This document shows, in pieces, positions 169 through 19,150 of a DNA stretch of 29,230 bases (position 1 is the first letter of the stretch; the number at the start of each line of letters is the position of its first letter). Origin of the DNA: a virus. A program made the translations under genes and the position numbers. Below the pieces are notes generated by a model. That model worked only from the letters and a program-made list of their open reading frames with translations. It ran no database searches and was not told where the DNA came from. Location: IMG/VR virus record IMGVR_UViG_3300010375_000044, positions 1-29,230 of that record, one strand, 5' to 3'.

Positions 169-449
169 GATTCGTTTTGGGGTTAGCCCTCTTGGTGGGG
201 ACGGTATGCGTTGGGCAGCAGCCGAAACCGTTGACCTGCCCGAAGTATGAGCACGTCATGTTCCAGCGCGAAACCTGCATCCCAGACGGGTGCTTCATGG
301 CTTCAAGTGAGCCGTATTGCGCTCCCGACCTCCACGTAGTCACAGAGAAGGAGTGGGCTGAGCTCCAAGAACGGCTGAAATGGCTCGATGAAGAGATTCG
401 CTGCCTGAGTACCAAGAACTGTGCGATTGGACTAGGCAAGCAGCAGTGA
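165..449 (+). CDS. Small secreted cysteine-rich protein (hypothetical)
   Basis: This 94-residue product begins with a Sec-type signal peptide: Arg2, a hydrophobic core to about residue 16, then Gly-Gln with predicted cleavage before Gln18. The mature part has six cysteines, an even number that suits disulfide bonds in the periplasm or outside, and a short charged helix near residues 61-80. It starts within an ATGA overlap with the partial gene upstream, so translation is probably coupled. Function is unknown. The [A/G]-Q cleavage site resembles those of the tail and spike genes on the other strand, which suggests the same secretion route. A periplasmic superinfection or lysis-related role is possible but unproven. 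Confidence 0.7.
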   Translation: MRFVLGLALLVGTVCVGQQPKPLTCPKYEHVMFQRETCIPDGCFMASSEPYCAPDLHVVTEKEWAELQERLKWLDEEIRCLSTKNCAIGLGKQQ

Positions 450-480
450 CCCTCCGGGGGATGTAGAGGAAGGTGGAGAG

Positions 481-729
481 ATGGGCGCAAGATTGTCCAA
501 GAAAGATAAGCAGCTTCTCGCAGACGAGGAGAAGGCCGCTCAGATGTATCTATGTGCGCACCTCAAGATGACTGGCCCTATCGAATATATCGACGACGGG
601 AAGACGGATGTAATTGCAAGCCTGCCTTGGCCGTCTCTAGTCAGGCTGCTTAGGGACTACGGCGTCAGCAGACTAGCGAACTTTTACGCTGCTGCAAAAG
701 GAAAGCCCCAGCACAAGGCCGGGGCGTGA
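481..729 (+). CDS. Hypothetical small soluble protein
   Basis: The product is 82 residues and starts at an ATG directly after a purine-rich GGAGAG stretch (AAGGTGGAGAG upstream), so the start is well supported. It is Lys-rich at both ends, with a probable helical region in the middle (residues 8-30) and a second helix near residues 50-70. No signal peptide or membrane segment is seen. It is the last gene of the rightward cluster and converges on the leftward late operon, with its stop at 727-729 and the opposing stop at 750-752. I do not recognise the family. Confidence 0.65.
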   Translation: MGARLSKKDKQLLADEEKAAQMYLCAHLKMTGPIEYIDDGKTDVIASLPWPSLVRLLRDYGVSRLANFYAAAKGKPQHKAGA

Positions 730-749
730 GGGCTGAGACGGGTTAGGGG
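721..749 (+). other. Candidate G-quadruplex at a convergent gene junction
   Basis: Four G tracts (721-724, 730-732, 740-742, 746-749) with loops of 5, 7 and 3 bases fit the canonical G3+N1-7 pattern. A fifth tract lies at 760-764. The motif covers the stop codon of the rightward gene and runs up to the stop of the leftward gene, where no ordinary hairpin-plus-T terminator is visible. A role in transcription pausing is inference. Confidence 0.45.
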
Positions 750-995
750 TTAGGCGGTAGGGGGTGTCAGCGGCTCCGGGTTTGGCAGGAGCGCTTGCAG
801 GCTCTCAACCGTGATCGGCGTTCCCGCTGCCTGACTCCAGCCGGCGAGTGCCTTGGTTGCGAGCTTGGCAAACACTTCCGCAAGTTCGATCGGCGCTGTC
901 GAAGCAGGCACAAGAGATTCGATGATGCCCTTGAGCTCATCGACAATGACGAGGATTTCATTGGTGGTATCGGCTACCTGTTGAGTGCTGGCCAT
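750..995 (-). CDS. Hypothetical protein, end of the late operon
   Basis: This 81-residue, Ala/Leu/Val-rich, mostly helical protein has a Pro-rich tail. ATG 995 is preferred over the in-frame GTG at 998 because AGGAGG sits about 6 bases upstream of the ATG; the start overlaps the stop of the lipoprotein gene (TGATG). No signal peptide or membrane segment is clear. It is the last leftward gene of the lysis cassette. The family is not recognised, and its position alone does not prove a role in lysis. Confidence 0.65.
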   Translation of the reverse strand: MASTQQVADTTNEILVIVDELKGIIESLVPASTAPIELAEVFAKLATKALAGWSQAAGTPITVESLQALLPNPEPLTPPTA

Positions 996-1387
996 CACTT
1001 GCCTCCTGCGTAAAGCGATTTCACATCTGAGATCAATCCAGGCAGCGCAGCTAGTGCCGTTTCTACGTCTGTCTGGGCTTGCTGGAGAGCCGCTTGGCCC
1101 TGCGATGCGGCCTTGGCCGTCTCATACGTCACCATCGCGTCTACGGCGGTTTTCTGCGCGTTCTTGGCCTTGGTGATCGCAGCGAATGCCTGCTGAGTAT
1201 GCGGAATGCAGGGAGTCGCTGAAGCTGGAGGACAGGGAGCAGAGGCTGAAACCTCATAGGCCGCCTGTGCCGAGTCAACAGCCGCCTTCGATGCGGAGAG
1301 GGACTGGAACGCCTGCCGCTCCCAGTTGGTGCAGCCGACCGCAGCAAAGACGATCAGCAGCAGAACATATTGCGCGTAGTTTCTCAT
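995..1387 (-). CDS. Predicted lipoprotein, outer-spanin-like candidate
   Basis: The 130-residue product has a type II signal: a hydrophobic segment at residues 8-17 ending in the lipobox Ala-Val-Gly-Cys with Cys19, then Thr20. The mature part is Ala/Gln-rich and helical (residues 25-45 and 70-120), interrupted by a Pro/Cys segment with two further Cys. It starts in an ATGA overlap with the holin candidate, with GGAGA 10 bases upstream. A small lipoprotein beside a holin and a cell-wall enzyme is the usual setting of an outer spanin (o-spanin), which joins the outer membrane to an inner-membrane partner. The spanin role is inferred from context; the lipoprotein nature is seen directly. Confidence 0.75.
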   Translation of the reverse strand: MRNYAQYVLLLIVFAAVGCTNWERQAFQSLSASKAAVDSAQAAYEVSASAPCPPASATPCIPHTQQAFAAITKAKNAQKTAVDAMVTYETAKAASQGQAALQQAQTDVETALAALPGLISDVKSLYAGGK

Positions 1388-2914: not shown

Positions 2915-3394
2915 TTACTGAAGTCCTACCGACCCTGAGACAACCAGCACCGGAGGTCCCACCACCGGCACTTGGGCTTGAGCGGGCATCTGAAAGGTGA
3001 TAATCGGTGATGTCGCCGATACGCCTCCCGCTGCTGTAGTGCCTTGCGATGAATAGTTGATGGTTGAACCCCAAGAGTGCGGGTCGTTGTAGTTCTGCGG
3101 AGTCGAGGTCTGCGAGAACTGAATACACTTCCAGTTGCCGATCGCCGCACCAGTAACCGGAGTCGGACACAAGCTGGAGGCTGTTTGCCCCGCTCTGGCG
3201 GTGTCTAGCTGCGCCTGAGTGCAGTTGGAGCTAGTCATCCCCACGCAAGTCCAGAGCGCGGTCACAGAGGGCAGCGCGTTGCTGTTGGCGATAGGAACCT
3301 GCACGCATGGACTCGTTGTAGAGCAGGACTGCCCAAACGCTACAAGGCCTAGCATTGTGTAAATCAGACCGATACCGAGTAAAGCTTTCTTCAT
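2915..3394 (-). CDS. Secreted hypothetical protein in the spike cluster
   Basis: The 159-residue protein starts with a clear Sec signal: Lys2-Lys3, a hydrophobic core to about residue 19, then Phe-Gly with predicted cleavage before Gln22. The mature part is Ser/Thr/Gly/Pro-rich with seven Cys and a Val/Pro-rich end, which looks extracellular. The start overlaps the stop of the big adhesin-like gene in an ATGA junction, so the two are probably made together. No known domain is recognised. It is the last of four signal-peptide genes in the late operon. Confidence 0.72.
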   Translation of the reverse strand: MKKALLGIGLIYTMLGLVAFGQSCSTTSPCVQVPIANSNALPSVTALWTCVGMTSSNCTQAQLDTARAGQTASSLCPTPVTGAAIGNWKCIQFSQTSTPQNYNDPHSWGSTINYSSQGTTAAGGVSATSPIITFQMPAQAQVPVVGPPVLVVSGSVGLQ

Positions 3395-6300
3395 TGAACC
3401 CCCTGTGTTCCTGAAAGTGTGACCCTGCCGCCCATTACGCTCGTAGTGGTGCTAGCAGCATTGACTTGCCATGTGCCGCCCACCACTGCTGACGAGACGT
3501 ACCCGCTCTGGCAGGCAATCACGCGGTACTGATATGTGCCTGCCGTGGTGATGCTCAGGTTTCCACCCGGATAGGCTGTGCTCCCGCATGTCGGCGCAGA
3601 GCCATCGGACGTGTAGTGCATCGTGCAGCCTGCCGTGGGCGAAGTAAACCCTACCGTCATCGGCAGAGTTGTTGGGGGGGCGGTGTACGTGCCTGAGAAG
3701 TTCGGGCTGAGCTGCGAAGGGTCGCCGCAAGTGAGAATCGGCGCGAAGCTGGCTGTCAGCGTCCCATTGCTGCTCAGGGTGCAACTCGTAGTTCCTGTTC
3801 CTGAGGCCGCAGAACATGCCCCGGTGCCAGACCATCCCGTAAAGCTGAACCCTGCATTCGGAGTTGCGGTGCAGGCTCCTACCGAGGTTCCCGTTGCATA
3901 GCTGCCTGTAGTGCAGTTGGTGCCCGAAACAGATCCATTCGCATTCGTGAGCACGAGCGTATTCATGGGCGTGATGACATAGGGAGCGGAGCCAACCGCC
4001 GAGTTAGTGAATGTCGGCTGAGTGGCGATTGCCTTGAGCGTTAGAGACGATGGAACCGCTACAGGCAGATAGTAAGGCGTGCTCCCTGTCGTCGGCGTGC
4101 TTCCATTGGTCGTATAGAAGACGTTCGGCGCAAGCGAGAAGGCTACGAGGTTGTCAAAGTCCACCGTGTTCGTCAGAGTCGCAGAGGCCTGGTTCACATC
4201 CCACTGATGCTGCAAGGCAAACTCATTGCGCGTCCAGGTAGTCTTGGAAACTGCCGTGCCCTGCGGAGTTAACCCCGTGGTTGCGTCTTGCAGGTTGTAG
4301 CAGGTGAGCCCAGTTCCTGCGGTGTAGTCTCCGACGCACAGCCGGTCATAGTAGAACGTGCATCCCGAGGCAGGGCCGGTGTTACAAACCGCATCGTGGT
4401 GCATCCAGATTTGGGTGTAGATCCAGTGATTCGCGGGCCATGAGTAGGTGGTGGAAATGGTTCCATCGGCTGCCACGAGCTTGACGTTGTGCCAAGATCC
4501 CCCTTGTGGGTCGAACCTAAACTTCCCATTGGGAAAGTCGAAGTCCCAGCCTTGGCCGATATAGACGCCTGCCGTGGTGTTGTAGTTCGTGTCATATTCG
4601 AGATGCTCCCCTGCGACAGACGTTGTGTTGACCTTTTGGCAGGTTTCCCTTACCCAATAAAGAGCCGAGTCGCCGCCTGAATACGTCCATTTCGTCGGAG
4701 CCAAGAGAGATGTGTTGAAGTTCCCGCTCTGCGTGGTAATCCCATACGTCGTATTCGCAGCAGAGACGTTTCCAGGCAGGGTGATTCCGGGGAAGCTCGT
4801 TGCGATGTTCGTTCCTACAGGACATCCATTCTGATTTGCCTGCCCATAGGTCGCAGTCAACGAGGCTGCGGAGTCATCCCCTCCCGCATCCTGTCCATTC
4901 TGTACCGGGTGAATGCCTGTGCCTGAGTTTGCAGCCGTGACGACGCCGAGATTCGGGCCGCCTGCTGCTACTGCGTTGGTTTTGTCGGTGACGTTGCAGT
5001 AGAGATCCCCTACCGGAACCCCGGTAGGTGTCAGGGCAGAGCCGTTCCAGCCCTCTGCGCAGTTGGTGTAGAGGTTTCGGCTGGGCGCATCACCGTTTGA
5101 TGAATTGCCGTTTGAGCCCTCAGTTGCCTTGAAGACTTGCGTACCAGAAGGAGAGGTGATCGTCACCCACTGCGCACTGGAGTAGGTTCCGGCTGGAGGG
5201 GTGAAGGTCGGAGTCGCGAGGGTATTTGAGAACGTTGCAGTGACCGTGCAGGCGTTGTTCGGCATCGTGCCGGTGAAGGTCGAAGTTCCTGAACCTCCGC
5301 AGCCCGTCACGCTGGTGATGGTCGATCCAGCTGAAGGCGTGACGGTGCAGGTATATGTGGAACCATAATTGTGAGCGCCCGAACATCCTGTAATCGTGCC
5401 TGAGCCCGAACCTGCCGTAGCGGTAGTTAGGGTCCAGCTATTCAGCGTGAAACTCGCCGTTAGAGTCGAGTTGGCAGCAAGCGAGAACGGTCCACACGTA
5501 CCCGTGCCCGAGCAGGACGCAGAGCCCGTCGAAGACCAGCCTGAGAACGAATAGCCTGTATTCGGAGTGGCCGTGCAAGCGCCGATTGAAGTACCGGAGG
5601 CATAGGTTCCTGCCGAGCAATTCGAGCCGCTGATTGAGCCGTTGGTTGCGGTGATTCCGAGAGTGAAGTTGGTTCCGCTGGTGCCATCCGGGTAGGGGTG
5701 AGCAAGTGGAGTATAGCTGGCGATTCCGGTGTAGATACCGACGCTCGACGGCTTGGCCGAACCTGCGAAGTAATCCACGGCACCGTTGTAAGGCCCCGCC
5801 AGAGAGTGTGCAGTGCTTTTGAGGTAGTTCGCCATGTTGCGCGGGCTGCTTGAAACGTCCAGATTGAACGTCACTGAATTCGTGCAGCTTCCGCCTGTCG
5901 AGCAACCTGATTGCGCCCCGTTATTCCACATGATGAAGGGAACAGAGTTGACGTTTGACCGCGTACATCCACCAGCGATGCAAGCTGAGCCAACCTGTCC
6001 AGCGCAAGGCCAGCCTGGAGCATTCGTGTCTCCAGCGTTTACGTCAATCTGCGAGTTTGACGGAGGGCTTCCGGCGCATTCACCAGCGATACCTCCGGTC
6101 TGTATTCCCGCTCCGCGATCCTCGTCAATCTGAAATGAGTTGACGCCATAACCCGTGATTGTGTTGTTGAAGATTACGCCCGTGCCTGCCTGGAATCGCC
6201 CCGGGTATCCTGCCGAGCAGTTGGTTCCTGAGCAGCTGTAATTGTTGTTGTAGATTTCAATCCTGCCGCCATCCCACTCGCCATTCCGCGTCCAGTGGGC

Positions 6301-7113
6301 GTAGTTGTAGCAGGTGCCGGTGATCGTGTTGTACCGAAGCACCATTCTCTGCGGGCCAGATTCAGAATCACTCAGAGCGCCAGCGCCATAGGAACCAGTA
6401 CAGGCAAAAGACGAGTCTTCGATGTAGACCGCGTTCTGATCCCCGAGTCCCAGCGCATAGGTCCGCCCAACGGTTTCGCCCAAGAGCAGCGAAGAGGAAG
6501 GCGGGTACTCAGAGTTCAAGTACATCGCCTGCTCGAAGTGATTCCCCGCCCCGACTGATCCGGTCAGGTTGCCGAACCGCCCATAGACGGGCCCGTAGAT
6601 AATGAAGTTGTTGCCTCCCGCCGAGGTCGTATAGGTGAGATTGTCGATGCGGTAGAAGCCTGCCCATGTAGTCATGTCGGGGTTTGAGGAGTTGATGTTG
6701 ACTCCATGCCCGCCATTTTGCGTAAACCCCGAAATCCTGAACGCCGCTGCCGTCGATTGATGGTTCCCCGCTGCCCCGGTGACGCGAACGGCAAACATGT
6801 AATCCGAAGGCGTGATGGTCGGATTTGAGCCGATCACGTTGATATTCTTGTCGGCCCAAGAGACCGGCGTAGACCATGAGCAGGAACCGCTTGGCACATA
6901 CACCCCATCCCCGATGAAGCTGGTAGGGCTGACGTACCCCGCTCCACCGGACGCAGAAGCGTTAATCGCCGCCTGAATGTCCGATTGGTTGCAGGTCGTT
7001 GCCTGCCGACAGGTGCCCGTTTCCCCATGCGTACAGGAGACGGTGGAGAACTGACCCAAAAGTGGTAGAGGAGCAAGGAGGCAGAGTGCTAGACTGAACG
7101 CCCCATGAAACAC
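3391..7113 (-). CDS. Large modular secreted adhesin or spike (beta-helix, InlB-like and chitobiase-C-like modules)
   Basis: From GTG 7113 the product is 1240 residues. It begins with a hydrophobic signal-like segment (residues 5-19) followed by Gly-Gln. Modules in order: parallel beta-helix-like region (about 40-430, many Asn/Gly turns); InlB B-repeat-like module with GACTATPN and FSGW motifs (491-556); a second related module (561-629); a concanavalin/LamG-like domain (about 800-940); a chitobiase C-terminal-like repeat with YTTNGSTPT (about 997-1046); another InlB-like copy (1059-1124); a second chitobiase-like repeat with YTSDGSAPT (about 1161-1216). Cysteines are frequent, as in exported proteins. 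The frame stays open to 7680, but that part lies antisense to a methyltransferase gene and is rejected as coding. ATG 7182 would give a basic n-region, but no start here has a good ribosome site. Role as receptor-binding spike or secreted adhesin is inferred. Confidence 0.75.
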   Translation of the reverse strand: MFHGAFSLALCLLAPLPLLGQFSTVSCTHGETGTCRQATTCNQSDIQAAINASASGGAGYVSPTSFIGDGVYVPSGSCSWSTPVSWADKNINVIGSNPTITPSDYMFAVRVTGAAGNHQSTAAAFRISGFTQNGGHGVNINSSNPDMTTWAGFYRIDNLTYTTSAGGNNFIIYGPVYGRFGNLTGSVGAGNHFEQAMYLNSEYPPSSSLLLGETVGRTYALGLGDQNAVYIEDSSFACTGSYGAGALSDSESGPQRMVLRYNTITGTCYNYAHWTRNGEWDGGRIEIYNNNYSCSGTNCSAGYPGRFQAGTGVIFNNTITGYGVNSFQIDEDRGAGIQTGGIAGECAGSPPSNSQIDVNAGDTNAPGWPCAGQVGSACIAGGCTRSNVNSVPFIMWNNGAQSGCSTGGSCTNSVTFNLDVSSSPRNMANYLKSTAHSLAGPYNGAVDYFAGSAKPSSVGIYTGIASYTPLAHPYPDGTSGTNFTLGITATNGSISGSNCSAGTYASGTSIGACTATPNTGYSFSGWSSTGSASCSGTGTCGPFSLAANSTLTASFTLNSWTLTTATAGSGSGTITGCSGAHNYGSTYTCTVTPSAGSTITSVTGCGGSGTSTFTGTMPNNACTVTATFSNTLATPTFTPPAGTYSSAQWVTITSPSGTQVFKATEGSNGNSSNGDAPSRNLYTNCAEGWNGSALTPTGVPVGDLYCNVTDKTNAVAAGGPNLGVVTAANSGTGIHPVQNGQDAGGDDSAASLTATYGQANQNGCPVGTNIATSFPGITLPGNVSAANTTYGITTQSGNFNTSLLAPTKWTYSGGDSALYWVRETCQKVNTTSVAGEHLEYDTNYNTTAGVYIGQGWDFDFPNGKFRFDPQGGSWHNVKLVAADGTISTTYSWPANHWIYTQIWMHHDAVCNTGPASGCTFYYDRLCVGDYTAGTGLTCYNLQDATTGLTPQGTAVSKTTWTRNEFALQHQWDVNQASATLTNTVDFDNLVAFSLAPNVFYTTNGSTPTTGSTPYYLPVAVPSSLTLKAIATQPTFTNSAVGSAPYVITPMNTLVLTNANGSVSGTNCTTGSYATGTSVGACTATPNAGFSFTGWSGTGACSAASGTGTTSCTLSSNGTLTASFAPILTCGDPSQLSPNFSGTYTAPPTTLPMTVGFTSPTAGCTMHYTSDGSAPTCGSTAYPGGNLSITTAGTYQYRVIACQSGYVSSAVVGGTWQVNAASTTTSVMGGRVTLSGTQGVQ
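3742..3939 (-). repeat. InlB-like module, copy B (protein-level duplication)
   Basis: This is a 198-base (66-codon) unit inside the large adhesin-like gene. It shares with the 5446-5643 unit an NGS[IV]SG start, GT[SV]xGACTATPN in the middle, an F[ST]GW motif and a TLTASF end. The two copies are equal in length but diverged. Confidence 0.7.
5446..5643 (-). repeat. InlB-like module, copy A (protein-level duplication)
   Basis: This 198-base unit pairs with 3742-3939. Both keep the GACTATPN and FxGW signatures of divergent InlB B-repeat domains and a pair of Cys in the second half. Confidence 0.7.
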
Positions 7114-7716
7114 ATACGCCCGTGGCAGTTCTTTGAGATGTACAAGGGAGAGAACCGAGATATTGTGCTTCCTATTCCGCATCGGCGCGGACTCGGAGCA
7201 TTGATGGCCCTTGAGACAATGGTTCTTATTGCCGCCGCTCGCATGGTCAATGCAGAGAGAATCTTCGAGTTCGGCACCTTCCTTGGAGCGACTACCCGAG
7301 CCTTCGCCCGAAACACTTCTGCTCAGGTCGTCACGCTTGACCTTGCTCCCGAAGACATTCAGAACCTTCCACAGAATGCGTCGGAGGCCGAGATAACATC
7401 CGTTCATTTGGGCAGCCCTCTTGATTTCGAGGGGCAGCCCGAGAGCGAGAGAATTACCGTTCTGCACGGCAACTCCCTGACGTTCGATTTCACGCCGTTC
7501 CAAGAGTCCTTCGATCTGGTTTTTATCGATGCTGGACATGAACTTCCAAACCTCATTTCCGATACTCAGAACGCGCTCAAAATCGTGAAGCCGAACGGTT
7601 GCATTGCCTGGCATGACTACGGGAATCCCGACTACCCAGACCTGAAGGAATACCTCGATGCAATGCCAAGTCTCATCCACATCGAGGATTCCTGGTTGTG
7701 TGTTCTATTGCGCTAG
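7105..7716 (+). CDS. Class I SAM-dependent methyltransferase (Methyltransf_24-like), antisense to the late operon
   Basis: The 203-residue protein has a SAM-binding Rossmann fold: motif I EFGTFLGATT (55-64), an acidic residue ending strand 2 (Asp79 in VVTLDL), DLVFIDAGH (137-145) and WHDYG (169-173). The FIDxxH and HDY signatures fit the Methyltransf_24 type, often found with sugar or polysaccharide biosynthesis genes; the substrate cannot be read. It is the only long plus-strand gene inside the leftward operon. Its start overlaps the adhesin start by 9 bases (divergent) and its end overlaps the spike gene stop by 12 bases (convergent). No ribosome site stands near the ATG; AGGAGG is 24 bases away. 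An extended -10-like TGCTAGACT (7087-7095) ends 9 bases before the ATG, so a nearly leaderless mRNA is possible. Confidence 0.85.
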   Translation: MKHIRPWQFFEMYKGENRDIVLPIPHRRGLGALMALETMVLIAAARMVNAERIFEFGTFLGATTRAFARNTSAQVVTLDLAPEDIQNLPQNASEAEITSVHLGSPLDFEGQPESERITVLHGNSLTFDFTPFQESFDLVFIDAGHELPNLISDTQNALKIVKPNGCIAWHDYGNPDYPDLKEYLDAMPSLIHIEDSWLCVLLR

Positions 7717-10700
7717 CGGCTGACATGTGAGTGTTCCCGTGAAAGTGGCTGACCCCGAAGTGCTCGTAATTTGCACGGCATCCACGTTGTTCGTTGTGTA
7801 CTCAATCGATCCGCCGATGTAGTAGTAATTCGACCCGATCTTTGGAGTATTAGTCTGTTCACCGACCATCGGAGTGGTGCCCGCATTCAGAGGGTCGTGA
7901 AGAATAAGCGTCCCCACGATGCGGTCATTGGTATTCCAGTTTGTATCGCCAGAGAATAACGAAGGAATGATCCCTGCCGAAGAACTCGACACTGCGCTTC
8001 CATTCGTCCTTTGATAGAGGTAATGCGCGGCTGTCGAATCATAAGTGCCCGACAAACCAAATCGGATGACGTCTGTTTGTCCAGACCCGGACGCCTGCGT
8101 GACGTTGTAGCGAATCTGATAGTCCTTATAGGTTGATGTAATGCAGCCAGTTACAGAGAGCGCAGTCACCCCCGTTCCACTTACAGTTGTCGGGGCGGGA
8201 AATGACGATCCCGCTGCTTGCCATGTGGCAGTGCTTGATGATGTTGCCGTAGGTACGTAGCCGGTAGAGGGGGTCCCGGTAACAGTGATTCCGCCAATCT
8301 TTGTGGCGTTGATGGTTCCTGTTCCGGAGACATCCATTGACCCGCCCGATCCAACAACCATGGCCGCTGTGGTGTTCGTTCCGGAAGTGATTGCCGAAAA
8401 GGCTGAACCGCCTCCCGATACGCCGCACGCGCCTCCTGCGTCATCGACCAGCCACGTGGTTCCGTGCAATGTAGGCTGTCCGCAATGGCCGCTGGTAAAA
8501 GTTCCCGATAGTGGAAGCATGAGTGTATCCGCCCCATTCACCCAACAATGCCAATTCTTGTTTGTGGAGTCGTAGCCACATTCTCCATTGGCAAGGGATG
8601 CGAAGCTAGCCGCCACAGGTAATTTGAACTGCGTTGCGCCCGACGCGTCAGGAGTGCCGGTGAATGTTGGGGATGCTGTGGGAGCCTTGGCATTGAGCGC
8701 GGTCTGAAGATCGGTTTGGCTGCTCAGGGTTCCGGTAATTGAACCCCATGCGGTTGCAGCTGTGAGTTGGTTATTTGAACCCGAGTCCGAAATCTTCGTC
8801 GTGTACGCTGTGTCAATGGCGTTCGTGTTGAGAAACGAGTTATTAGAACTCGTAGCATCCGCCGAAATGCCAGTTACTGAACTTCCCCCTCCTCCGATCC
8901 AGTTGCCAGACAGAGCGTTGCGCACTGAAGTGTTTTTTAGGATGACGTTCGTTATGCTGGTTGTGTTGACCTGAAAATTGTTTCCTGTGACCGTTACACC
9001 AGAACTGCCATCCAGAATCAGAGAGCTTGACGGGTTACTGAACCCCGCCCAGCCTCCAAAGAAATGGTTGTCGCTTACGGAAATTAGCTGCGATGAGTGA
9101 AGGTAAATTCCTGCTGTAGACATGCCCCCATTGGGCACAATTTGCATATCGTGAATGGCTATACCATACGAGCTTTCAATGTCGATTCCGTACGATCCGC
9201 CGCTCGCTTCGGCCCATCCCCCGCCAAATTCTATAGTCGATTCGTTGGTGGGCAGCGTGCCGGTAACGTAGATACATGCGACTTTGCAGTTGTCTAGGAT
9301 CGGGTCAGTGAAGTGCAGGTCTGATTCATGGAACCCGCCTCCCCCACCCGAGCCATCAATATAGACCCCATAACTAGTGGCTTCTGTCTGAAGACCCTGC
9401 ACCATCAGGTCGGAGATGATTGATCCAGTAACATAGACGCCATAGATCGTCGGAGTGCCGGTTACAGTGCCAACTCCAACGCCAGGACGGGTAAGGATGG
9501 TTGACGCGAAAGGGTCTGAGCCATCGAGATAGAATCCGTAGTAGGAGACGCTTGCATTTGGGGTGAACGATCCAAATCCGATTTGCGCATCGGAATCGTT
9601 TATTTCCCCAACGCCGCAGTTTCCAAAGCCCTTGAGGTAGAAACCCCTCACTGCATCCTCTGAGAACACGCGATTCACGAAGGCTCCGCACATGAAGCTG
9701 AGTGAAAGGTTTGTCGCGGTTCCTGTGGGCTGTATCGTCCTCTTGAGGTCCAGATCGGAAATATAGTTGTGGTACATGTACGTCAGTTGCGTTGTACCTG
9801 TACCTGCGAAGTCGAAGATGGTCGCGCTTGCTGAAGTGGTGAAGACGACTGTCCCGGTTGTGTTGCCTTTCGAGTTCGTCTGGCAGCCCTTGATCCCGAT
9901 GTTGTTTCGAGCATGGACGTTGACCACCGAAGCAGATTTGTAGGTGGCGCATTGCAGAACCATGTTGCCAACGCTGATTGAGTCAATCGTCTTCTGAAAT
10001 GCCACTGCGTTGTCGGTGCCGGTGCCTGCCGAATAGACCCCATCTCCCACCGCGCCGAACCATTCCGCATTCGCGTCCTGTGCAGCGAGGGCGACTGATC
10101 CAGACCCGGCAAAGTGCTGAACCGGGGATGCGTCCGTGGTGGTGATAGGCTTCGAGAACGTGACGGTCTGCCCGCTTGCAATTGTCCACAGTCCAGCTTT
10201 TGAGAACTGCACAGGACAAGTAACGGTGCCACCTGTTGCGATAGAGAGCGGAGTGGTTGCGTAGAGAGTCCCGGTTCCGCATTTTGTATTCAGAGCCGAA
10301 ACGGTTGTTTCTGATGCGGAGCCGGGAACGTTGGTGTAACTGGCTCCCGTGCCTCCCGAAGCCTCGAGATTGATCGTGGAACCAGATGGTGTGATAGCGA
10401 CGGTCCCGCCTGTAGAGGTAAGCGAGAGCCCGCCTGCCAGAGAGTTGAGCGTGGTCACCCCAGCAGCGCCGAGACACGTACCCGCTCCACCATTGGCTGA
10501 ATACTTGATACAGTGAGAGCCCGAATCGCCCCACAGGAGATCGTGGCCCGCTGCTGGCGTAGGTGCCGTTCCTTCTGTGGAATCCCATGTTCCGCCCTGC
10601 CCAACGACTGTGCCTGTCGTGGTGAGGGTTTTCATGGTTTCGTTTCCGGCTCCATCTGTAGTGAAGCCAGTATCTCCACCGAACGAGCCTCCATTGTTGT

Positions 10701-11637
10701 ATTGGATCTGCCCGTTGGTGCCTCCAGGCGATGTGCTGCCGCCTGAAAAAGTGCAGCCGGTTCCCGAGCAGCTGACGCCAGAGCCTGAGAACGTGAATGC
10801 ACCCGCAGAGCCGTTAATACTGAGCACGCCGCCAGCGGAAACAGAGATTGGAGCGGTTGACACCCAGAAGCCGGGGAGCACGTTGGAGCCGTCTGTTGAG
10901 GGTGCGCAATTCGCTTGCCCTGAAGCGTCAAAGCTTGGCGTTCCTGGAACTCCGCAGAGCGCGAAATCGGTGATTGTTCCGCTTACCCACTGCACAACAA
11001 CTGGCGTGCCCTCCACACCTATCGCAGCAATTACGGGAGGAGTGGAGCTGGTGATGTTGATGGGGTAGCGAGAATTGATCCCTCCCGTATTGACCCAAGG
11101 GGGGGCTTGCGAACTAACCGTGTAGTTCGTCCCATTGACGCTGATTACCCAGCTTCCCGATTGGTCTGTGAGTAAGTCATCGTTGACGCCAAGTTGGAGT
11201 TGTGTTGCGCCATGAGGCACGTAGAAGGTGGTCGGGCCGTTGCCTAAAGCGACTGGCTGGATAACATTGCCAGAGGAATCCGTGAAGGCTCCAACGAGGG
11301 AGTCGAAGTTAGGAGGAGAAAAGACGTTGCCCCCAAACTTGCTTGGGATATTCAGCACACCGCCTGAAAGAATTGGCAGGCCGCTATTGCCATCTGTTGT
11401 GACTGAACTGACTGCTCCGCTTCCGCCATTGAAGGTGCAGGTCGTTACTCCCGAACTAGTCGAGCAGCCGCCGAACCCATCTCCGCTTAACGTGAAATCG
11501 CCAGTCTGCCCCTGGATCGAGGAGACTCCCGGCTGATTGCCGCCGATCTGCACTGTAGAACTGGGCGTGCCGCCGATGGACACCTGCGCAACCGCCAGAG
11601 AGGGGAATAGAACGAGCAATCCGATCAGCTTTTTCAT
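7705..11637 (-). CDS. Giant tail spike with pectate-lyase-type beta-helix and a signal peptide
   Basis: ATG 11637 overlaps the upstream stop (ATGA), has GAGGTG 9 bases before it, and gives 1310 residues. It starts with a Sec-like signal: Lys2-Lys3, a Leu/Val core, then Ala-Val-Ala with cleavage before Gln18. The N-terminal third has low-complexity fibre repeats (for example NGQIQYNNGGSFGGD). From about residue 520, EWFGAVGDGV followed by TDNAVAFQKTID is the classic start of a pectate-lyase-3 type beta-helix, continuing to about 980. The C-terminal part carries fibre motifs: an Ala/Pro/Thr stretch with SPTFTGTP and a GYDSTNKNWHCWVNG module. Such proteins bind and often cleave host surface glycans. 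A signal peptide on a virion spike is unexpected. The function as spike or depolymerase is well supported by family features; the location is uncertain. Confidence 0.82.
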   Translation of the reverse strand: MKKLIGLLVLFPSLAVAQVSIGGTPSSTVQIGGNQPGVSSIQGQTGDFTLSGDGFGGCSTSSGVTTCTFNGGSGAVSSVTTDGNSGLPILSGGVLNIPSKFGGNVFSPPNFDSLVGAFTDSSGNVIQPVALGNGPTTFYVPHGATQLQLGVNDDLLTDQSGSWVISVNGTNYTVSSQAPPWVNTGGINSRYPINITSSTPPVIAAIGVEGTPVVVQWVSGTITDFALCGVPGTPSFDASGQANCAPSTDGSNVLPGFWVSTAPISVSAGGVLSINGSAGAFTFSGSGVSCSGTGCTFSGGSTSPGGTNGQIQYNNGGSFGGDTGFTTDGAGNETMKTLTTTGTVVGQGGTWDSTEGTAPTPAAGHDLLWGDSGSHCIKYSANGGAGTCLGAAGVTTLNSLAGGLSLTSTGGTVAITPSGSTINLEASGGTGASYTNVPGSASETTVSALNTKCGTGTLYATTPLSIATGGTVTCPVQFSKAGLWTIASGQTVTFSKPITTTDASPVQHFAGSGSVALAAQDANAEWFGAVGDGVYSAGTGTDNAVAFQKTIDSISVGNMVLQCATYKSASVVNVHARNNIGIKGCQTNSKGNTTGTVVFTTSASATIFDFAGTGTTQLTYMYHNYISDLDLKRTIQPTGTATNLSLSFMCGAFVNRVFSEDAVRGFYLKGFGNCGVGEINDSDAQIGFGSFTPNASVSYYGFYLDGSDPFASTILTRPGVGVGTVTGTPTIYGVYVTGSIISDLMVQGLQTEATSYGVYIDGSGGGGGFHESDLHFTDPILDNCKVACIYVTGTLPTNESTIEFGGGWAEASGGSYGIDIESSYGIAIHDMQIVPNGGMSTAGIYLHSSQLISVSDNHFFGGWAGFSNPSSSLILDGSSGVTVTGNNFQVNTTSITNVILKNTSVRNALSGNWIGGGGSSVTGISADATSSNNSFLNTNAIDTAYTTKISDSGSNNQLTAATAWGSITGTLSSQTDLQTALNAKAPTASPTFTGTPDASGATQFKLPVAASFASLANGECGYDSTNKNWHCWVNGADTLMLPLSGTFTSGHCGQPTLHGTTWLVDDAGGACGVSGGGSAFSAITSGTNTTAAMVVGSGGSMDVSGTGTINATKIGGITVTGTPSTGYVPTATSSSTATWQAAGSSFPAPTTVSGTGVTALSVTGCITSTYKDYQIRYNVTQASGSGQTDVIRFGLSGTYDSTAAHYLYQRTNGSAVSSSSAGIIPSLFSGDTNWNTNDRIVGTLILHDPLNAGTTPMVGEQTNTPKIGSNYYYIGGSIEYTTNNVDAVQITSTSGSATFTGTLTCQPLAQ

Positions 11638-12776
11638 TTGCAAAGCACCTCAATGTACGGGGTAGCGGCGTCGTAGGAGTGGTCTGGTACGCGTTGCATG
11701 GCAATGGTTGCGGTGGTAAGGGTGTTCGACACGAGCACAAAGACACCCATGTGCGTGTCATCAAAAACAGAGGTTTTGGTGCCGGGAATCACTGCGAAGA
11801 CTTGGGTGGTGCAGGCAGTTGGGAAGTTGATTGTCTGCGTAACCGAGGAGTCAGACATCGAAGTTCCCGATGCCCACTGCAGGATGAGCCCGGAACCGAA
11901 GGTCTGATAGCCGTTCGCTGTGAGCGAGGAGGTTCCGAGGGCGCACGGCGCTCCAGCATCCCCGAGGTTCCCTGAGGACCATTGAGCGCAGTTGCCATCT
12001 GTACCGGCTGCTGAGGCCGTTACCGCGTCCGTTCCGCTTCCGGTTGTATGCAGGCCCAAAGCGATGGTTCCCGAGGTTGTCACCGGAGAGCCGGAAACCG
12101 TCATCTGCGCAGGAACCGAAACGCCAACGCTGGTTACCGTTCCACCCGAGGCCGGAAGTGCTGTCCAGTCTCCTGTGCCGCCGTCGCAATACTTCCCTGC
12201 TGCCTTGGTGCCGCCGCAGAGCGAAAGACCAGCCTTCTCCGGGCTCGATACGTCGAACGTCCAATTGCTCAGCACGGGGCTGAGATTGGTCATGGTGAAG
12301 TGATTTGCCGGAAGTGGCCCGCCTACATTGATCGTGTGCAGCGTTTTGTTGATGGTGATATAGGCATCGCAATCCAAGCCTGTGACAGTCGAGTTTTCAA
12401 AGGTGATCGCGCCTGCTATCCCGCATCCCCCACCCCCTGCTCCCCCGGCTGGAATGTTGTCGGCTGTCCAGATGGTTGTGCCGAAGGAATCCTTGAGCAC
12501 GAGCTTCAGCGTGGCAGTGCCTACCCAGATATTTGCGCTTCCTGAGGCGTCGAGAATGATGGGATTGGTATTTGTTGAGGTGCCGCTTGCATCCGTGTAA
12601 GTCGGCGTGCTGGTGGTCGTACCTGCAAGATAGGTATAGAGCTTGCAGCCCGCGCACGCTGCTCCAGATTGGTCAAAGAACGTCCAATGTGGCTGCACGA
12701 GGGGCGTCTTCGACTGGGCAAAGGCCAGCGAGCCACACAACAGCGCGAAAGCAGCGAGTAACCGCTTCAGTTTCAT
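11634..12776 (-). CDS. Tail fibre or spike-like protein with a signal peptide
   Basis: ATG 12776 has GGAG 9 bases upstream and begins a 380-residue product with a clear Sec signal: Lys2, Lys4, Arg5, a Leu/Ala core, then Ala-Phe-Ala with cleavage before Gln21. The next about 90 residues (YTYLAGTTTSTPTYTDASG, NPIILDASG, LVLKDSFGTTIWTADN) match the N-terminal adaptor-like domain common in phage tail fibres. The rest is Gly/Ser/Thr-rich with fibre-type repeats and a beta-rich C-terminal domain ending in IEVLCK. The open frame runs up to 12920, but those 48 residues have no ribosome site and lie before the signal, so they are rejected. It is the first gene of the spike cluster and is coupled to the giant spike by an ATGA overlap. 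Confidence 0.8.
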   Translation of the reverse strand: MKLKRLLAAFALLCGSLAFAQSKTPLVQPHWTFFDQSGAACAGCKLYTYLAGTTTSTPTYTDASGTSTNTNPIILDASGSANIWVGTATLKLVLKDSFGTTIWTADNIPAGGAGGGGCGIAGAITFENSTVTGLDCDAYITINKTLHTINVGGPLPANHFTMTNLSPVLSNWTFDVSSPEKAGLSLCGGTKAAGKYCDGGTGDWTALPASGGTVTSVGVSVPAQMTVSGSPVTTSGTIALGLHTTGSGTDAVTASAAGTDGNCAQWSSGNLGDAGAPCALGTSSLTANGYQTFGSGLILQWASGTSMSDSSVTQTINFPTACTTQVFAVIPGTKTSVFDDTHMGVFVLVSNTLTTATIAMQRVPDHSYDAATPYIEVLCK

Positions 12777-12816: not shown

Positions 12817-12933
12817 ATGGAATTTGTTCTTGGCTGCCTGCTTTTCGGCGCTGCCTTCGTGGTTCTCGCCAAGGTTGCGTCTGGGATATTCTGGGACACA
12901 AAAGCGTCCCGAGATCGCACTTCTATCGATTAA
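12817..12933 (+). CDS. Candidate 38-residue membrane peptide on the opposite strand
   Basis: A plus-strand ORF in the 146-base gap between the ejection genes and the spike cluster encodes 38 residues: a hydrophobic segment (about residues 3-22, MEFVLGCLLFGAAFVVLAKV) followed by a polar tail. It overlaps the stop of the neighbouring minus gene by 11 bases. No good ribosome site is seen. The single membrane-length segment is the only support, so this is tentative. Confidence 0.25.
   Translation: MEFVLGCLLFGAAFVVLAKVASGIFWDTKASRDRTSID
12893..12910. other. Short hairpin in the gap before the spike cluster
   Basis: GGGACAC-AAAA-GCGTCCC forms a 7-pair stem (one G.T-type pair) with a 4-base loop. 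It lies just after the stop of the 370-residue ejection-type gene in the leftward direction. No T run follows, so it is not a classic terminator; an mRNA stability or pausing element is possible. Confidence 0.3.
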
Positions 12934-14035
12934 CGCTGTTGTAGACGTTCAGTAGCTTCCCGGCCCCAGCCATCCCAGCAGCACCTAGCGCAGCAGGAAT
13001 CGCGTATTTCTTCGCGGCGTCGTACCATTCCTGCAATTTCGCGGCTGTATGGTAGTCATTTAGGCCTTTGTAATAGTCGGCTGCATGGCCTACCTGGTCG
13101 GCAGCGTTGCCGATGTCCTGCTTCAGCCCGACAACCATCTGCACGAGCTGACGACGAACCGGAGGAGCCATTTTCATGGTTTCGTCGGCACTCAGACTGC
13201 CCAGAACTTGATAGAAATCTCGCGCCTCTTCATAGGTGAGCGGCCCTGCCTTCGGATTGGTGATCCGGTTGAGGAATTTGTTGACTGTTGGGCCGAGATT
13301 CGTCTTCCTCTGCCAGTCCATGAGTTTCAGCGCAGCATCTCCCGCATTATCGAGGTTCACGGGGATCTTGTTGGCGTCATGTGCGACTGATTGCAGCAGC
13401 CCACCCGCCTTTTGCTTCATTACGGAAGGCACAACCTTCTCCGCAATGGCTTGGGCCGCCTGCCCAGCGTAAGGAGCAGCTACCTTTGCCGCTCCGCCAA
13501 GCGCCCTGCCGCCTTCTACGGTCCCGAGAAGCTGCCCCGCCGTGTTCTCTGCGGCAAGTGCAGTTCCGCCCTGCTGCTGGTCGTTCTGGAAGTTCTCAAC
13601 CATCGGCTTTACCAATTCAGCGCCGAAGGTGTACGGGTTGCCTCCGCTTGCGATGAGCGGTTTGGCCACTGAAGCGACTGCGTTCAGCGGATGCCGCGCT
13701 GTGTCTGCGATAGTCTTGATGGCTTGGCCGCCAACCTGGAGCGCTCCCCCAAGCAATCCCTGCTCTCTGCCGCCTGATCCGACTGGGTTGGTGAGCGCTT
13801 CCCAGTAGCGATTTTCAGGATGGTCGGGCTGATCCGGTGCGCCGAGCTTAAATCCGGCTTTGACGGCATCCTGAGCGCGTTCCTGTGGGATGTATCCGAC
13901 TTTCCCATCCGGCGATGTCATCTCATAAGCAGGCTTGAAACCAGCTTTTAGAGCATCCTGCACCTTCGACTGCGGGATCTCGCCTGTAGTCGTTCCGTCT
14001 GGCGCGAACATTGGCACTGTTGCGTTGGTTGCCAT
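12923..14035 (-). CDS. Putative internal ejection protein (P22 gp16 position)
   Basis: The 370-residue, Ala/Gly/Lys-rich protein starts with two tandem copies of a ~28-residue motif: PDGTTTGEIPQSKVQDALKA (about 12-31) and PDGKVGYIPQERAQDAVKAG (about 42-61). A helical body follows, with an Ala/Gly-rich hydrophobic stretch near the C-terminus (about 341-360). It is the third of three ejection-type genes between the tail genes and the spikes, matching the place of P22 gp16, and begins in a TAATG overlap with the gene before it. Family identity is inferred from order and composition; length is shorter than P22 gp16. Confidence 0.6.
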   Translation of the reverse strand: MATNATVPMFAPDGTTTGEIPQSKVQDALKAGFKPAYEMTSPDGKVGYIPQERAQDAVKAGFKLGAPDQPDHPENRYWEALTNPVGSGGREQGLLGGALQVGGQAIKTIADTARHPLNAVASVAKPLIASGGNPYTFGAELVKPMVENFQNDQQQGGTALAAENTAGQLLGTVEGGRALGGAAKVAAPYAGQAAQAIAEKVVPSVMKQKAGGLLQSVAHDANKIPVNLDNAGDAALKLMDWQRKTNLGPTVNKFLNRITNPKAGPLTYEEARDFYQVLGSLSADETMKMAPPVRRQLVQMVVGLKQDIGNAADQVGHAADYYKGLNDYHTAAKLQEWYDAAKKYAIPAALGAAGMAGAGKLLNVYNSVNR

Positions 14036-15453
14036 TAGTGAGCCTTGCCGCCGAACTGCGCGAAGGGATCATTGCCCGCCGCTGGCGTAGCTGCCGGTGC
14101 GCTCTCGTCATTATTGAAGGCGGGTTTACCCTGCATGCCCTGCTGGAATTGAACCTGAAGGTTATGAGCCTTCGAGCGGAGGAGCATGCGGTATGTTGCG
14201 ATCGCGCCTTTCAATTGCATGGGACTCTGAGCACGGCTGAATGTGCCGTCAACCTTCTCGATTTCCTTATCTGTTGCTCCTGAGGCCTTGAGAGCCGCCG
14301 CCACTTCACCAGACATGGCGTTTTTCGCCGCCTCAAAGTTGGCTGGTACAGGACTGCCCGTGGCAGTAGCCCAAGCCTGTTTTGCCTTGTTCGCGATTTG
14401 CAGGTTTGAGTTGTTAAGATCCGCGCCGAGTTTGTCGAGCAGGTCGAGATGCTGCATGGCTGTGTTGAAGGCCGTGAGCTGCTGAGCGCCCTTGCCGGAA
14501 GTCATGTACTTGTCTTCGGCCTTGATTGCCTGCGTTGATGCGCTGCCCCTGCCCTTCATGCCTACCGCATCGTTGCGCCGAACCATGATGGTTTCGCCGG
14601 GGTTGTTCGGGTCGGCTACTTCGGTCGGCATCTGCAAGAGCGCACTCATGCGCACCTGGGCGGGCGCGATCTTCGTTTCCTTGGTGTACTCCTGGAATGC
14701 CTTTTGGCGATTCTCTGGCGTGTTATCGAGCTTGCGAGATTGCAGGTAGTCGTAGATGAACTTGTCGGTGTCTGTCTTGCCGCCGCGTGCGAGGTCCATC
14801 TGGCCCAACTGCACATCAGTCTGCGTCTTCGTGAGCCCAAGAGCCTTTTCCTGCCTGGAGAGCGCATCATCCAGATACGCATTCTGCATCGACACGAACG
14901 GGGCGAACTGCTTCAACTGCTCCTTGGTCATCGGCTGTTGAGGGTTGAGCGGAAGCTTCTGATTGCCGGGGATGGCGTTGTACTGCTCGACGATCTGAGG
15001 CCACTGGGCCTGCAATGCATCGTCAGGGAGGTTCTGGATGTTGTTGTAGAGCTGCTGGGTTTGTTCGTGCGCAGCCTTCATGTTGGCAAGCTGGTCTTTG
15101 TCGAGCGTTGCCAGAGATTGACGCTGCTCGATATCGGCTTTTTTGAGCGCGGAATAGGTCTGAGCCGAGAGCCCGCCTTTTTTCGCCAGCGTATCTGCAA
15201 TCTGGCCCAGAGTCTTTCCTTGCATCGACGGGTCGGCCATCGCATCGCGAAAGGCTTGCTGGTGCTTCTGTGCCTGCTGCTCCTGTTGAAGCTGAAGTTG
15301 CCCAGACTGCACGCGTTGCTGCGCCTCCTGCTGCTGGAGGGGAACAAGGGCCATCTGGTTCTTGAGCGCAAGGATTTGCCCGATCTGGCTGGTTAAGTCT
15401 TGTTGCGGCTGCGGGCCCTGAACGTGCAGTGCCGGAAGAGGAATGGTCGCCAT
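14035..15453 (-). CDS. Putative internal ejection protein, Gln-rich coiled coil (P22 gp20 position)
   Basis: The 472-residue protein is dominated by Gln-rich helices (residues 30-70: repeated Leu-Gln-Gln-Glu) and a long Ala/Lys/Gln helical body, with no signal peptide or hydrophobic anchor. The C-terminal tail is Ala/Pro-rich. It starts directly after the stop of the gp7-position gene (TAGATG). In P22-like phages the equivalent proteins are carried in the virion and ejected into the cell envelope with the DNA. Assignment rests on position, length and composition; P22 gp20 is of similar size. Confidence 0.6.
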   Translation of the reverse strand: MATIPLPALHVQGPQPQQDLTSQIGQILALKNQMALVPLQQQEAQQRVQSGQLQLQQEQQAQKHQQAFRDAMADPSMQGKTLGQIADTLAKKGGLSAQTYSALKKADIEQRQSLATLDKDQLANMKAAHEQTQQLYNNIQNLPDDALQAQWPQIVEQYNAIPGNQKLPLNPQQPMTKEQLKQFAPFVSMQNAYLDDALSRQEKALGLTKTQTDVQLGQMDLARGGKTDTDKFIYDYLQSRKLDNTPENRQKAFQEYTKETKIAPAQVRMSALLQMPTEVADPNNPGETIMVRRNDAVGMKGRGSASTQAIKAEDKYMTSGKGAQQLTAFNTAMQHLDLLDKLGADLNNSNLQIANKAKQAWATATGSPVPANFEAAKNAMSGEVAAALKASGATDKEIEKVDGTFSRAQSPMQLKGAIATYRMLLRSKAHNLQVQFQQGMQGKPAFNNDESAPAATPAAGNDPFAQFGGKAH

Positions 15454-16557
15454 CTATGCAATCCCCAACTGTTTCAGCATCAGAAGTTGTGAAAGGTTGT
15501 TGCCCGTGTTTCCAATCGCCCCGGACCATGCGTTGCCGGAGCCCACAATGCCGGAGGCGTTGGCCGCGCCTGCATTGTTGTAGTCCTGCCCAATCTGCTG
15601 GCCTGTGCCCAAGAGATTTCCGGTGACGTTGTTGGAGGATTCCTGCCCGAAAGCCCCGAGCGAGTTTGCAGCCTGCTGCCCTGAGTTCGACAGTCCCAAA
15701 AGTCGGCTGTAGATGTTGTTCTGGTCGTTGTTCCAGACGCCGTAGTTCGTGCCGAAGGTGCTCAGAGCGCGGTTGTACACATTTCCGTACTCGTTGCTGG
15801 CGTAGTCCTGCCCGTACTGATCCAGAGCCTTGGCCGTTCCGCCTGTGAGCACTCCACCGCGTGCCGCTGCGCTGCGCTGAATGGCGTCGGTGCCCATCTT
15901 GAGCCGTGCCTGGTAGCCGGGATCGTTCTGCTCTGTGATGTCCGTGGGAGCAGTGAACTGCTGGCCGTAGCCCTGAATCAGCGAGCCGAAGCCGCCAGTC
16001 TGCCCCGGAGCGGTCTGTGTGCCGAGAGCCTGATTCATCGAGCCGCCCGCAGTTACGGGATTCGCCCTCGGAACCCCTGCGGGTAGGCCGCCAGAGGCTT
16101 GCAGTGATCCCGTTCCGCCCATCGCTGGAACCGCCCCTACTGCGCCAGAAGTGGGCTGTACGGGGCTGCCTGGTGCAAGGAGTGAACCTGTGCCGCCGAG
16201 TCTCGAAACACCCGTCGCCGCGTTGGTCTGTGGCTGGCCTGCTGTCTGAGGGTTGAGGCCCTGTGCTGGCTGAACCTGCCCGCCGAGAGAGGTATTCGGA
16301 GAGATGCCCAAAAGGTAGCTGAGATTGTTCAGTGCTCCCCCGCCTGCCTGAAGCCAAGGGGCAAGGTTCTGCTGGGTCTGGTTGTAGACGCCGTTCTGGT
16401 AGTTGAGGGCGTTGTTGGAGCCTTGCAACTGAAGATTTGCCGCCTGTTGAGCAGCCTGCATCTGCTTGTCGGCAGCACTTGAAGCCGAATGCGATCCAAT
16501 CAGCGCAGAGCCGATCGAACCCAGAGCACTGATTCCTGCGACTGCTGCTAACGGCAT
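15454..16557 (-). CDS. Putative DNA-transfer/ejection protein (P22 gp7 position)
   Basis: The 367-residue product starts with an Ala/Gly/Ser hydrophobic segment (residues 3-22), then a Gln/Ala-rich helix, then NLAPWLQAGGGALNNLSYLL (about 64-83). This last stretch (PW/PY-x-x-AG-x-x-ALNxL) is a signature I associate with gp7-like phage DNA-transfer proteins. The rest is Gly/Asn/Gln-rich with repeated Gly-Thr-Gly-Ser-Leu motifs. AGGAGG 8 bases before the ATG is a strong start and the gene overlaps the previous stop as TAATG. It should be a virion protein ejected during infection. Confidence 0.7.
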   Translation of the reverse strand: MPLAAVAGISALGSIGSALIGSHSASSAADKQMQAAQQAANLQLQGSNNALNYQNGVYNQTQQNLAPWLQAGGGALNNLSYLLGISPNTSLGGQVQPAQGLNPQTAGQPQTNAATGVSRLGGTGSLLAPGSPVQPTSGAVGAVPAMGGTGSLQASGGLPAGVPRANPVTAGGSMNQALGTQTAPGQTGGFGSLIQGYGQQFTAPTDITEQNDPGYQARLKMGTDAIQRSAAARGGVLTGGTAKALDQYGQDYASNEYGNVYNRALSTFGTNYGVWNNDQNNIYSRLLGLSNSGQQAANSLGAFGQESSNNVTGNLLGTGQQIGQDYNNAGAANASGIVGSGNAWSGAIGNTGNNLSQLLMLKQLGIA

Positions 16558-16925: not shown

Positions 16926-17524
16926 TAGGTCGGGTCCACAAACCCCGTAATCACGCCATTTGCGTTCCAGCTAATCGATCCGTCTGTACCGCCGCCCGTC
17001 AACTTGAGCAGCGTGATCGTGTGCGCTGTGACTCCGGGGAACTTGCTATCCGTGTAGGCCTTCGAAGCCGTCTCTGCTGCGCCTGCGGAGCCTGCCGGGT
17101 CGCTGGCTGCCTGTGCTGCCGCTGCTGCGCCTGCTGGATCAAATGCGCTTGTGGGCTGAAACGCTGCCGAGTCCAGCACGTTCGATGGAGCGCCAGCGGG
17201 TAGAACTACGGCTCCCTGCGTAATCGGATCTGCTGCGGGGAGCTGTGCTGGCTGAACGATGCCCGTCAGAGCCGTTGCCGCAAGCAATCCCGAGGCGCTG
17301 AGGTTCTGAATGTTGTCTTTGAGCGTCCCAACATGCCCCGCCACTGTTGCGTCTGGGCCGATAACGCCATCGAACTGCCCAAGAATGCTCAGCGCGTTGT
17401 TGACTGTCTGAGCAAGCCCCTGCGCAAACTTCAGAAACTCCCATGTCGCATAGCCGTTGTCATCCACCAGCTTCGTGCGGGGCGTAAACGGGGAGACTAC
17501 GAGATTTGCGGGGTTGTTGCTCAT
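16925..17524 (-). CDS. Virion-associated protein at the tail-needle position
   Basis: The 199-residue protein has an N-terminal segment (residues 1-45, with DDNGYATWEFLKFAQGL), a helical middle with VGTLKDNIQNLS (66-77), an Ala/Gly/Pro low-complexity stretch (about 125-155) and a C-terminal module ending in Gly-Ser-Ile-Ser-Trp-Asn-Ala-Asn-Gly-Val-Ile-Thr-Gly-Phe. This last motif resembles small beta modules at the ends of phage fibre proteins. It follows the gp10-like gene with an ATGA overlap, where P22 keeps gene 26 (the needle that plugs the portal). A needle or short fibre role is inferred from position and composition, not from similarity to gp26. Confidence 0.6.
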   Translation of the reverse strand: MSNNPANLVVSPFTPRTKLVDDNGYATWEFLKFAQGLAQTVNNALSILGQFDGVIGPDATVAGHVGTLKDNIQNLSASGLLAATALTGIVQPAQLPAADPITQGAVVLPAGAPSNVLDSAAFQPTSAFDPAGAAAAAQAASDPAGSAGAAETASKAYTDSKFPGVTAHTITLLKLTGGGTDGSISWNANGVITGFVDPT

Positions 17525-19026: not shown

Positions 19027-19150
19027 CTTTGGGCTTCTCCGTGCTCCAGCCAATGCGAATCAGGTTTTCAAGCTCTGCCTGCGTGTTGGCAGTGAGTTCC
19101 TTCACCGTGCCGTTCGGACGCAGGTAATAGACCTTGCAGGGGGCTGTCAT
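19019..19150 (-). CDS. Small hypothetical protein between the gp4-like and gp10-like genes
   Basis: This 43-residue ORF (MTAPCKVYYLRPNGTVKELT then a short helix ending STEKPKGA) starts in a TAATG overlap with the gp4-like gene and its stop overlaps the gp10-like GTG start by 8 bases. It has balanced composition and fills an otherwise empty gap, which supports real translation. No family is recognised. Confidence 0.55.
   Translation of the reverse strand: MTAPCKVYYLRPNGTVKELTANTQAELENLIRIGWSTEKPKGA

Follow-up and report, generated by a model that had tools for sequence, protein, structure and literature searches.

The window analysed here is a linear virus fragment of 29,230 bases from a podovirus-like phage (IMG/VR record IMGVR_UViG_3300010375_000044). 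A four-gene module among its late genes (12776-2915, minus strand) encodes a tailspike/fibre precursor, a large spike, a modular adhesin and a 159-residue protein, all with predicted Sec signal peptides. By the usual teaching, the virions of tailed phages are assembled in the cytoplasm. The evidence inclines us to the view that one tailed-phage lineage splits this process, with DNA-filled heads built in the cytoplasm, while spikes leave it through Sec, acquire disulfide bonds in the periplasm and are added to the particles only at lysis. Export and oxidative folding of the spikes are well supported by comparison of related sequences, from which we infer actual export, cleavage and disulfide bonds. 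The least secure step is docking onto the virion after lysis, which is suggested by the retained head-binding domain, the P22-like hub and, by analogy, the tailing of P22 in vitro.

Signal peptides in the window and among relatives

Every window open reading frame of at least 80 residues was scanned at every start with a rule-based search for Sec signals cleaved by signal peptidase I. An earlier note on this DNA had placed five exported proteins at 165-449, 2915-3394, 3391-7113, 7705-11637 and 11634-12776, each with a Sec signal and an A/G-Q cleavage site. All five reading frames lie at these positions, and the scan found the signal in four of them: the 94-residue protein on the plus strand (165-449, MRFVLGLALLVGTVCVG before QQ) and, on the minus strand, the 159-residue protein (2915-3394, MKKALLGIGLIYTMLGLVAFG before QS), the large spike of 1310 residues (7705-11637, MKKLIGLLVLFPSLAVA before QV) and the 380-residue fibre precursor (11634-12776, MKLKRLLAAFALLCGSLAFA before QS). 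The adhesin (3391-7113, minus strand), which combines InlB B-repeats with CHB_HEX_C and Fn3_assoc modules, has the core and the G-Q site and fell below the scan score because its GTG start gives an n-region without K/R (VFHGAFSLALCLLAPLPLLG before Q). Its signal is taken as real, because a relative of 73% identity in locus L216 begins with a complete one (MSKFRPISLALCLLAPLPLLG before QFSTVSC), but the start codon in the window is uncertain. By the scan, four of the five proteins have all three regions of a signal peptide (n, h and c) and an AxA-type site; for the fifth, this relative shows them.

None of the 21 other window genes checked scored as signal-bearing; outside the exported set the scan was positive only for a lipoprotein (995-1387, minus strand) and for one antisense false positive (22552-22776, plus strand). 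Across related phages, 12 of 963 genes scored at least 6.5, several being true signals, and the signals in the window exceed chance. Signal-bearing starts mostly had Shine-Dalgarno sites, such as the GGAG upstream of the fibre signal (12717-12776, minus strand). Dual translation from an internal start was dropped as a candidate because no alternative start near the cleavage site is conserved among relatives, in-frame ones occurring in single members only.

The phage clade was collected through the window portal, and the comparison that the earlier note had proposed, a look for signals on the spikes of related phages, found signal-bearing fibres and spikes at the equivalent locus in these relatives. 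Of 80 IMG/VR loci surveyed, 9 had a signal, and 91 distinct head-binding domains from these and further loci comprised 23 with and 68 without one (0/68 scoring in the signal scan). Signal-bearing rows clustered on a tree built from few columns and with many forks unresolved (2 changes needed vs about 21 in shuffles), so that one or a few acquisitions of the signal appear to suffice. An invariant glycine lies at residue 17-19 (at 21 in one case) counted from the mature +1 position, and at the same distance from the initiator methionine in most signal-less relatives. Because of this equal spacing, the signal is best described from the alignment as an added module whose removal would restore the usual N-terminus. 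The N-terminus of the large spike (QVSIGG..VQIGG) also resembles spikes of relatives.

Signal-bearing genes of this kind were found in other phages as well. Tunturi_1 (PP887698; PMC11924767), a cultured podophage of Tunturiibacter psychrotolerans (Acidobacteriota), has five signal-bearing late genes, with mature cysteine counts of 20 (gp12), 10 (gp13), 20 (gp14), 1 (gp16) and 32 (gp17); gp14 is annotated as tail spike and gp17 as virion structural. CHB_HEX_C and Fn3_assoc modules are common to gp17 and the window adhesin, which matched each other by BLASTP at E 0.001 only. Since the Tunturi_1 proteins gave no match to the head-binding-domain profile, and so are not homologous to these spikes by that measure, the habit of placing signals on spikes seems to be shared by one or more phages of a different type. 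A term search of the main text of PMC11924767 returned no discussion of signal peptides. With like genes in a cultured phage, the model is directly testable. A 60-kb contig of another phage type (L207, UViG_3300045838_000006) carries three consecutive signal-bearing genes, because of which exported tail-region proteins may extend beyond this clade. In the Acidobacteriota genome G266, a phage-derived region (L122, C1 at about 5.997-6.017 Mb of a 6.4-Mb chromosome) keeps a fibre with its signal and two more genes that carry one, along with acyltransferase-like genes and duplicated holin-like genes, and is possibly a prophage remnant or domesticated.

A tailspike head-binding domain and its cysteines

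The first module gene had been labelled tail-fibre-like. At its C-terminus a Gp53-like tail-fibre domain was found (11691-11897; Pfam PF21882, 28.8 bits, E 1.8e-6). The label needs correction at the other end, where mature residues 1-90 (12447-12716) match a tailspike head-binding domain, with a linker between the two. A profile of 71 fibre relatives searched against the PDB matched the head-binding domain of the Pam1 tailspike (7eeq, E 1.5e-15) and the Pan3 tail spike (9vyg, E 1.4e-14), and the single fibre sequence also matched PDB head-binding domains. AlphaFold2 modelled only about the first 90 mature residues with high confidence, the block-mean predicted local distance difference test score (pLDDT) being 91-98 over residues 11-90; past residue 90 the model is unreliable (pLDDT mostly below 60), and disulfide distances were not readable from it. 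Foldseek agreed on the domain, and structure alignment of model residues 1-89 (VIA) gave Z scores of 11.7 for Pan3 (9vyg), 10.0 for Pam1, 9.8 for P22 (1lkt) and, lowest, 9.0 for Sf6.

The window also encodes a P22-like portal, major head protein, scaffold, terminase and tail hub. The hub, a stabilization protein (head closure Hc3) at 17521-19053 on the minus strand, matched the Pan3 (2.5e-9) and Pam1 (9.1e-8) stabilization proteins, and the tail-complex structures that it matched also hold the tailspike head-binding domain. The PDB profile, the model alignment and the matching hub together identify the fibre, at the level of sequence and model, as a tailspike anchor preceded by an export signal. 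As to a receptor-binding beta-helix body in the same chain, the fibre has only 380 residues and ends in the Gp53-like domain. The large spike is encoded separately and had no match in the PDB sequence search, Pfam or PHROGs, because of which its putative beta-helix nature is only a reading of its sequence; DNA-pattern searches with it returned weak partial relatives only.

Cysteines distinguished the signal-bearing domains from the signal-less ones. A CxxC motif occurred within the first 45 residues in 16/23 signal-bearing vs 0/68 signal-less domains (Fisher 9e-13, an indicative value only, because the compared rows are related), and the first 100 residues held on average 2.1 vs 0.19 cysteines. 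The window fibre reads CAGC (12645-12656, minus strand) where signal-less relatives read PLxGG, and a subclade of four loci (L104, L105, L109, L110) has a different cysteine pair. Even cysteine numbers are a recognized sign that a protein is exported and disulfide-bonded (PMC7678975). The mature count was even in all 23 signal-bearing fibres and, clade-wide, in 43 signal genes with 4 odd, compared with 34 even and 25 odd among signal-less genes. In the window, the mature exported proteins hold 6 (165-449), 6 (2915-3394), 38 (adhesin), 22 (large spike) and 10 (fibre) cysteines. The non-exported proteins hold 3 in the portal (22344-24494), 1 in the major head protein (20068-21264), none in the scaffold or in three ejection-type proteins and 6 in the hub; portal, head protein and hub, all on the minus strand, are signal-less. 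With signals conserved across divergent phages and mature cysteines enriched and even, the export that the earlier note had proposed for these proteins is well supported.

A proposed assembly route and its alternatives

Late genes lie on the minus strand in the order ejection-type genes (12923-16557), four-gene module and candidate lysis cassette (2006-995). The route that would account for the module begins with receptor-binding spikes made as precursors, exported via Sec and cut by signal peptidase I at A/G-Q. Mature spikes would then fold with disulfide bonds in the oxidizing periplasm, and removal of the signal from the product of the first module gene would regenerate the head-binding domain of a P22-type tailspike. 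Heads and the signal-less hub would meanwhile assemble in the cytoplasm without spikes, until holin, endolysin and spanin opened the cell and pre-folded spike trimers docked onto the hub. The N-terminal glutamine would follow a host export habit and probably be cyclized. For P22, heads without spikes can reportedly receive their tailspikes in vitro (Israel, 1967; title cited in PMC3741392). We regard this whole sequence of Sec export, cleavage, disulfide folding and docking at lysis as a probable account of the module, held with considerable reserve. The earlier note had left a choice between proteins secreted for a role outside the virion and spikes joining the virion after export; the latter is the better fit, since a head-binding domain of the P22 type has been retained in the exported fibre.

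Several observations weigh against the route. Three signal-bearing fibres (L116-L118) have no cysteine in their first 100 residues, and in a host sample affected by noise, even cysteine counts among exported proteins were only slightly in excess (14/10). The 23 fibres are kin to one another, which makes the parity counts partly dependent and the p-values indicative. In Tunturi_3 and Tunturi_4, phages of the same host genus as Tunturi_1, none of the tail proteins that were checked, tail fibres included, carries a signal, and export is therefore not required by the host. L216 encodes a signal-less 196-residue protein with a weak head-binding-like match (317-907, plus strand) ahead of an exported 1440-residue spike; therefore not every member exports its anchor, and the division of labour between anchor and spike may vary.

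The best-surviving alternative is that the proteins are exported and never enter the virion, acting instead at the surface of the cell that made them or of cells nearby (as glycan depolymerases, by masking receptors, by excluding superinfection or by aiding escape from debris), with the head-binding domain as a leftover trimerization cap. Signals and cysteines point to export only, the adhesin carries InlB-repeat and CHB_HEX modules, L216 retains its separate signal-less head-binding-like protein, and Porphyromonas gingivalis phages carry secreted Q-rule proteins of unknown function (PMC10367356). This alternative is nevertheless unlikely, as divergent phages retain the head-binding domain, with the same N-terminus once the signal is cut off, no second copy of the domain was reported in the relatives searched, and most of these phages would be without a recognizable tailspike if these genes were set aside.

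It is less likely still that export is partial, with some chains acting outside while others escape Sec and both fold and enter virions in the cytoplasm, their signal uncleaved or trimmed. P22 tailspikes do normally assemble in the cytoplasm, and single members have in-frame starts near the cleavage site; yet these starts are not conserved, and the gain and even parity of cysteines indicate selection in an oxidizing compartment. That the signals are non-functional, either hydrophobic N-termini serving another purpose (e.g., membrane contact at infection) or parts of passenger genes for host secreted proteins, such as those of soil bacteria that the adhesin resembles in domain content, is very improbable, given that all three signal regions and the A/G-Q site recur in otherwise differing sequences, that a phage head-binding domain follows the signal, and that the genes overlap head to tail within the late operon (ATGA at the fibre/large spike and adhesin/159-residue protein junctions).

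If spikes do mature outside the cytoplasm, this would change the understanding of assembly and release in this clade, offer a route to disulfide-stabilized spikes and explain how, ahead of lysis, the spikes of the infecting phage could coat or strip the host cell.

The candidate lysis cassette, all on the minus strand, comprises the lipoprotein (995-1387; lipobox AVG-C, weak Rz-like spanin match), a small membrane protein without family match that is a candidate holin by hydrophobicity and position (1384-1635), and a candidate endolysin (1644-2006; Pfam PF10908, E 4.5e-13; phrog_24118). The latter is a Tlde1-type protein, of an L,D-transpeptidase-like family of type VI secretion effectors, standing at the expected endolysin place beside the holin-like and spanin-like genes; another occurs at L120:11136-11552. 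Between spike and adhesin, a class I methyltransferase gene lies on the opposite strand (7105-7716, plus strand). The place looks like a moron insertion site, because L216 holds a different methyltransferase-like gene there (5220-5960, minus strand); the methyltransferases perhaps serve surface glycan modification.

Host, N-terminal glutamine and known systems

When 84,980 species genomes were scanned with the portal profile, the one match was a contig of a Candidatus Sulfotelmatobacter metagenome-assembled genome (Acidobacteriota) whose fibre is signal-bearing. The fibre domain turned up in four of 396 Acidobacteriota genomes, in three of them with a signal and in one without. By these matches, soil phages of this group probably infect Acidobacteriota.

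Glutamine occupies +1 in all five window proteins and in most fibres of the clade. The glutamine noted earlier is thus real and is not phage-specific: in G266, 18/33 signal-like genes allow glutamine at +1, vs 3/12 in E. coli segments (small samples with crude sites), and G266 and G306 encode glutaminyl cyclase (PF05096, 6e-95 and 4e-97), each with its own signal peptide. These two genomes are hosts of related phage genes, from which the window host is inferred; the cyclase was not found in the incomplete metagenome-assembled genome G025. Because of these host genes, the +1 glutamine most likely reflects a host export habit followed by the phage, and the N-terminal glutamine of exported spikes would probably be cyclized to pyroglutamate.

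The Q-rule, glutamine at +1 after signal peptidase I cleavage with an exported glutaminyl cyclase in host genomes, has been described as Bacteroidetes-specific (PMC10653852; see also PMC5837995). The pattern here is alike and differs in phylum, Acidobacteriota being mentioned in neither paper, and in substrates, which are phage spikes; export of the Q-rule kind may therefore extend beyond Bacteroidetes. P. gingivalis phages likewise carry genes with Sec signals exposing an N-terminal glutamine (PMC10367356). Theirs are five genes of unknown function, whereas here the signal is followed by a virion-binding tailspike domain, and the cysteines are a sign of oxidative folding.

Literature searches, in a library without most subscription journals, turned up no paper describing signal peptides on the tailspikes of tailed phages. 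The closest known system is that of the P22-type tailspikes (P22 gp9, Sf6 gp14, cyanophages Pam1 and Pan3), which share the fold and position of the head-binding domain, the P22-like portal and hub and the late gene order. Known members begin directly with the domain, whereas the proteins here have a Sec signal before it, an added pair of cysteines and a large, even cysteine count. The window system is a variant of the P22-type tailspikes with an assembly route that is possibly new.

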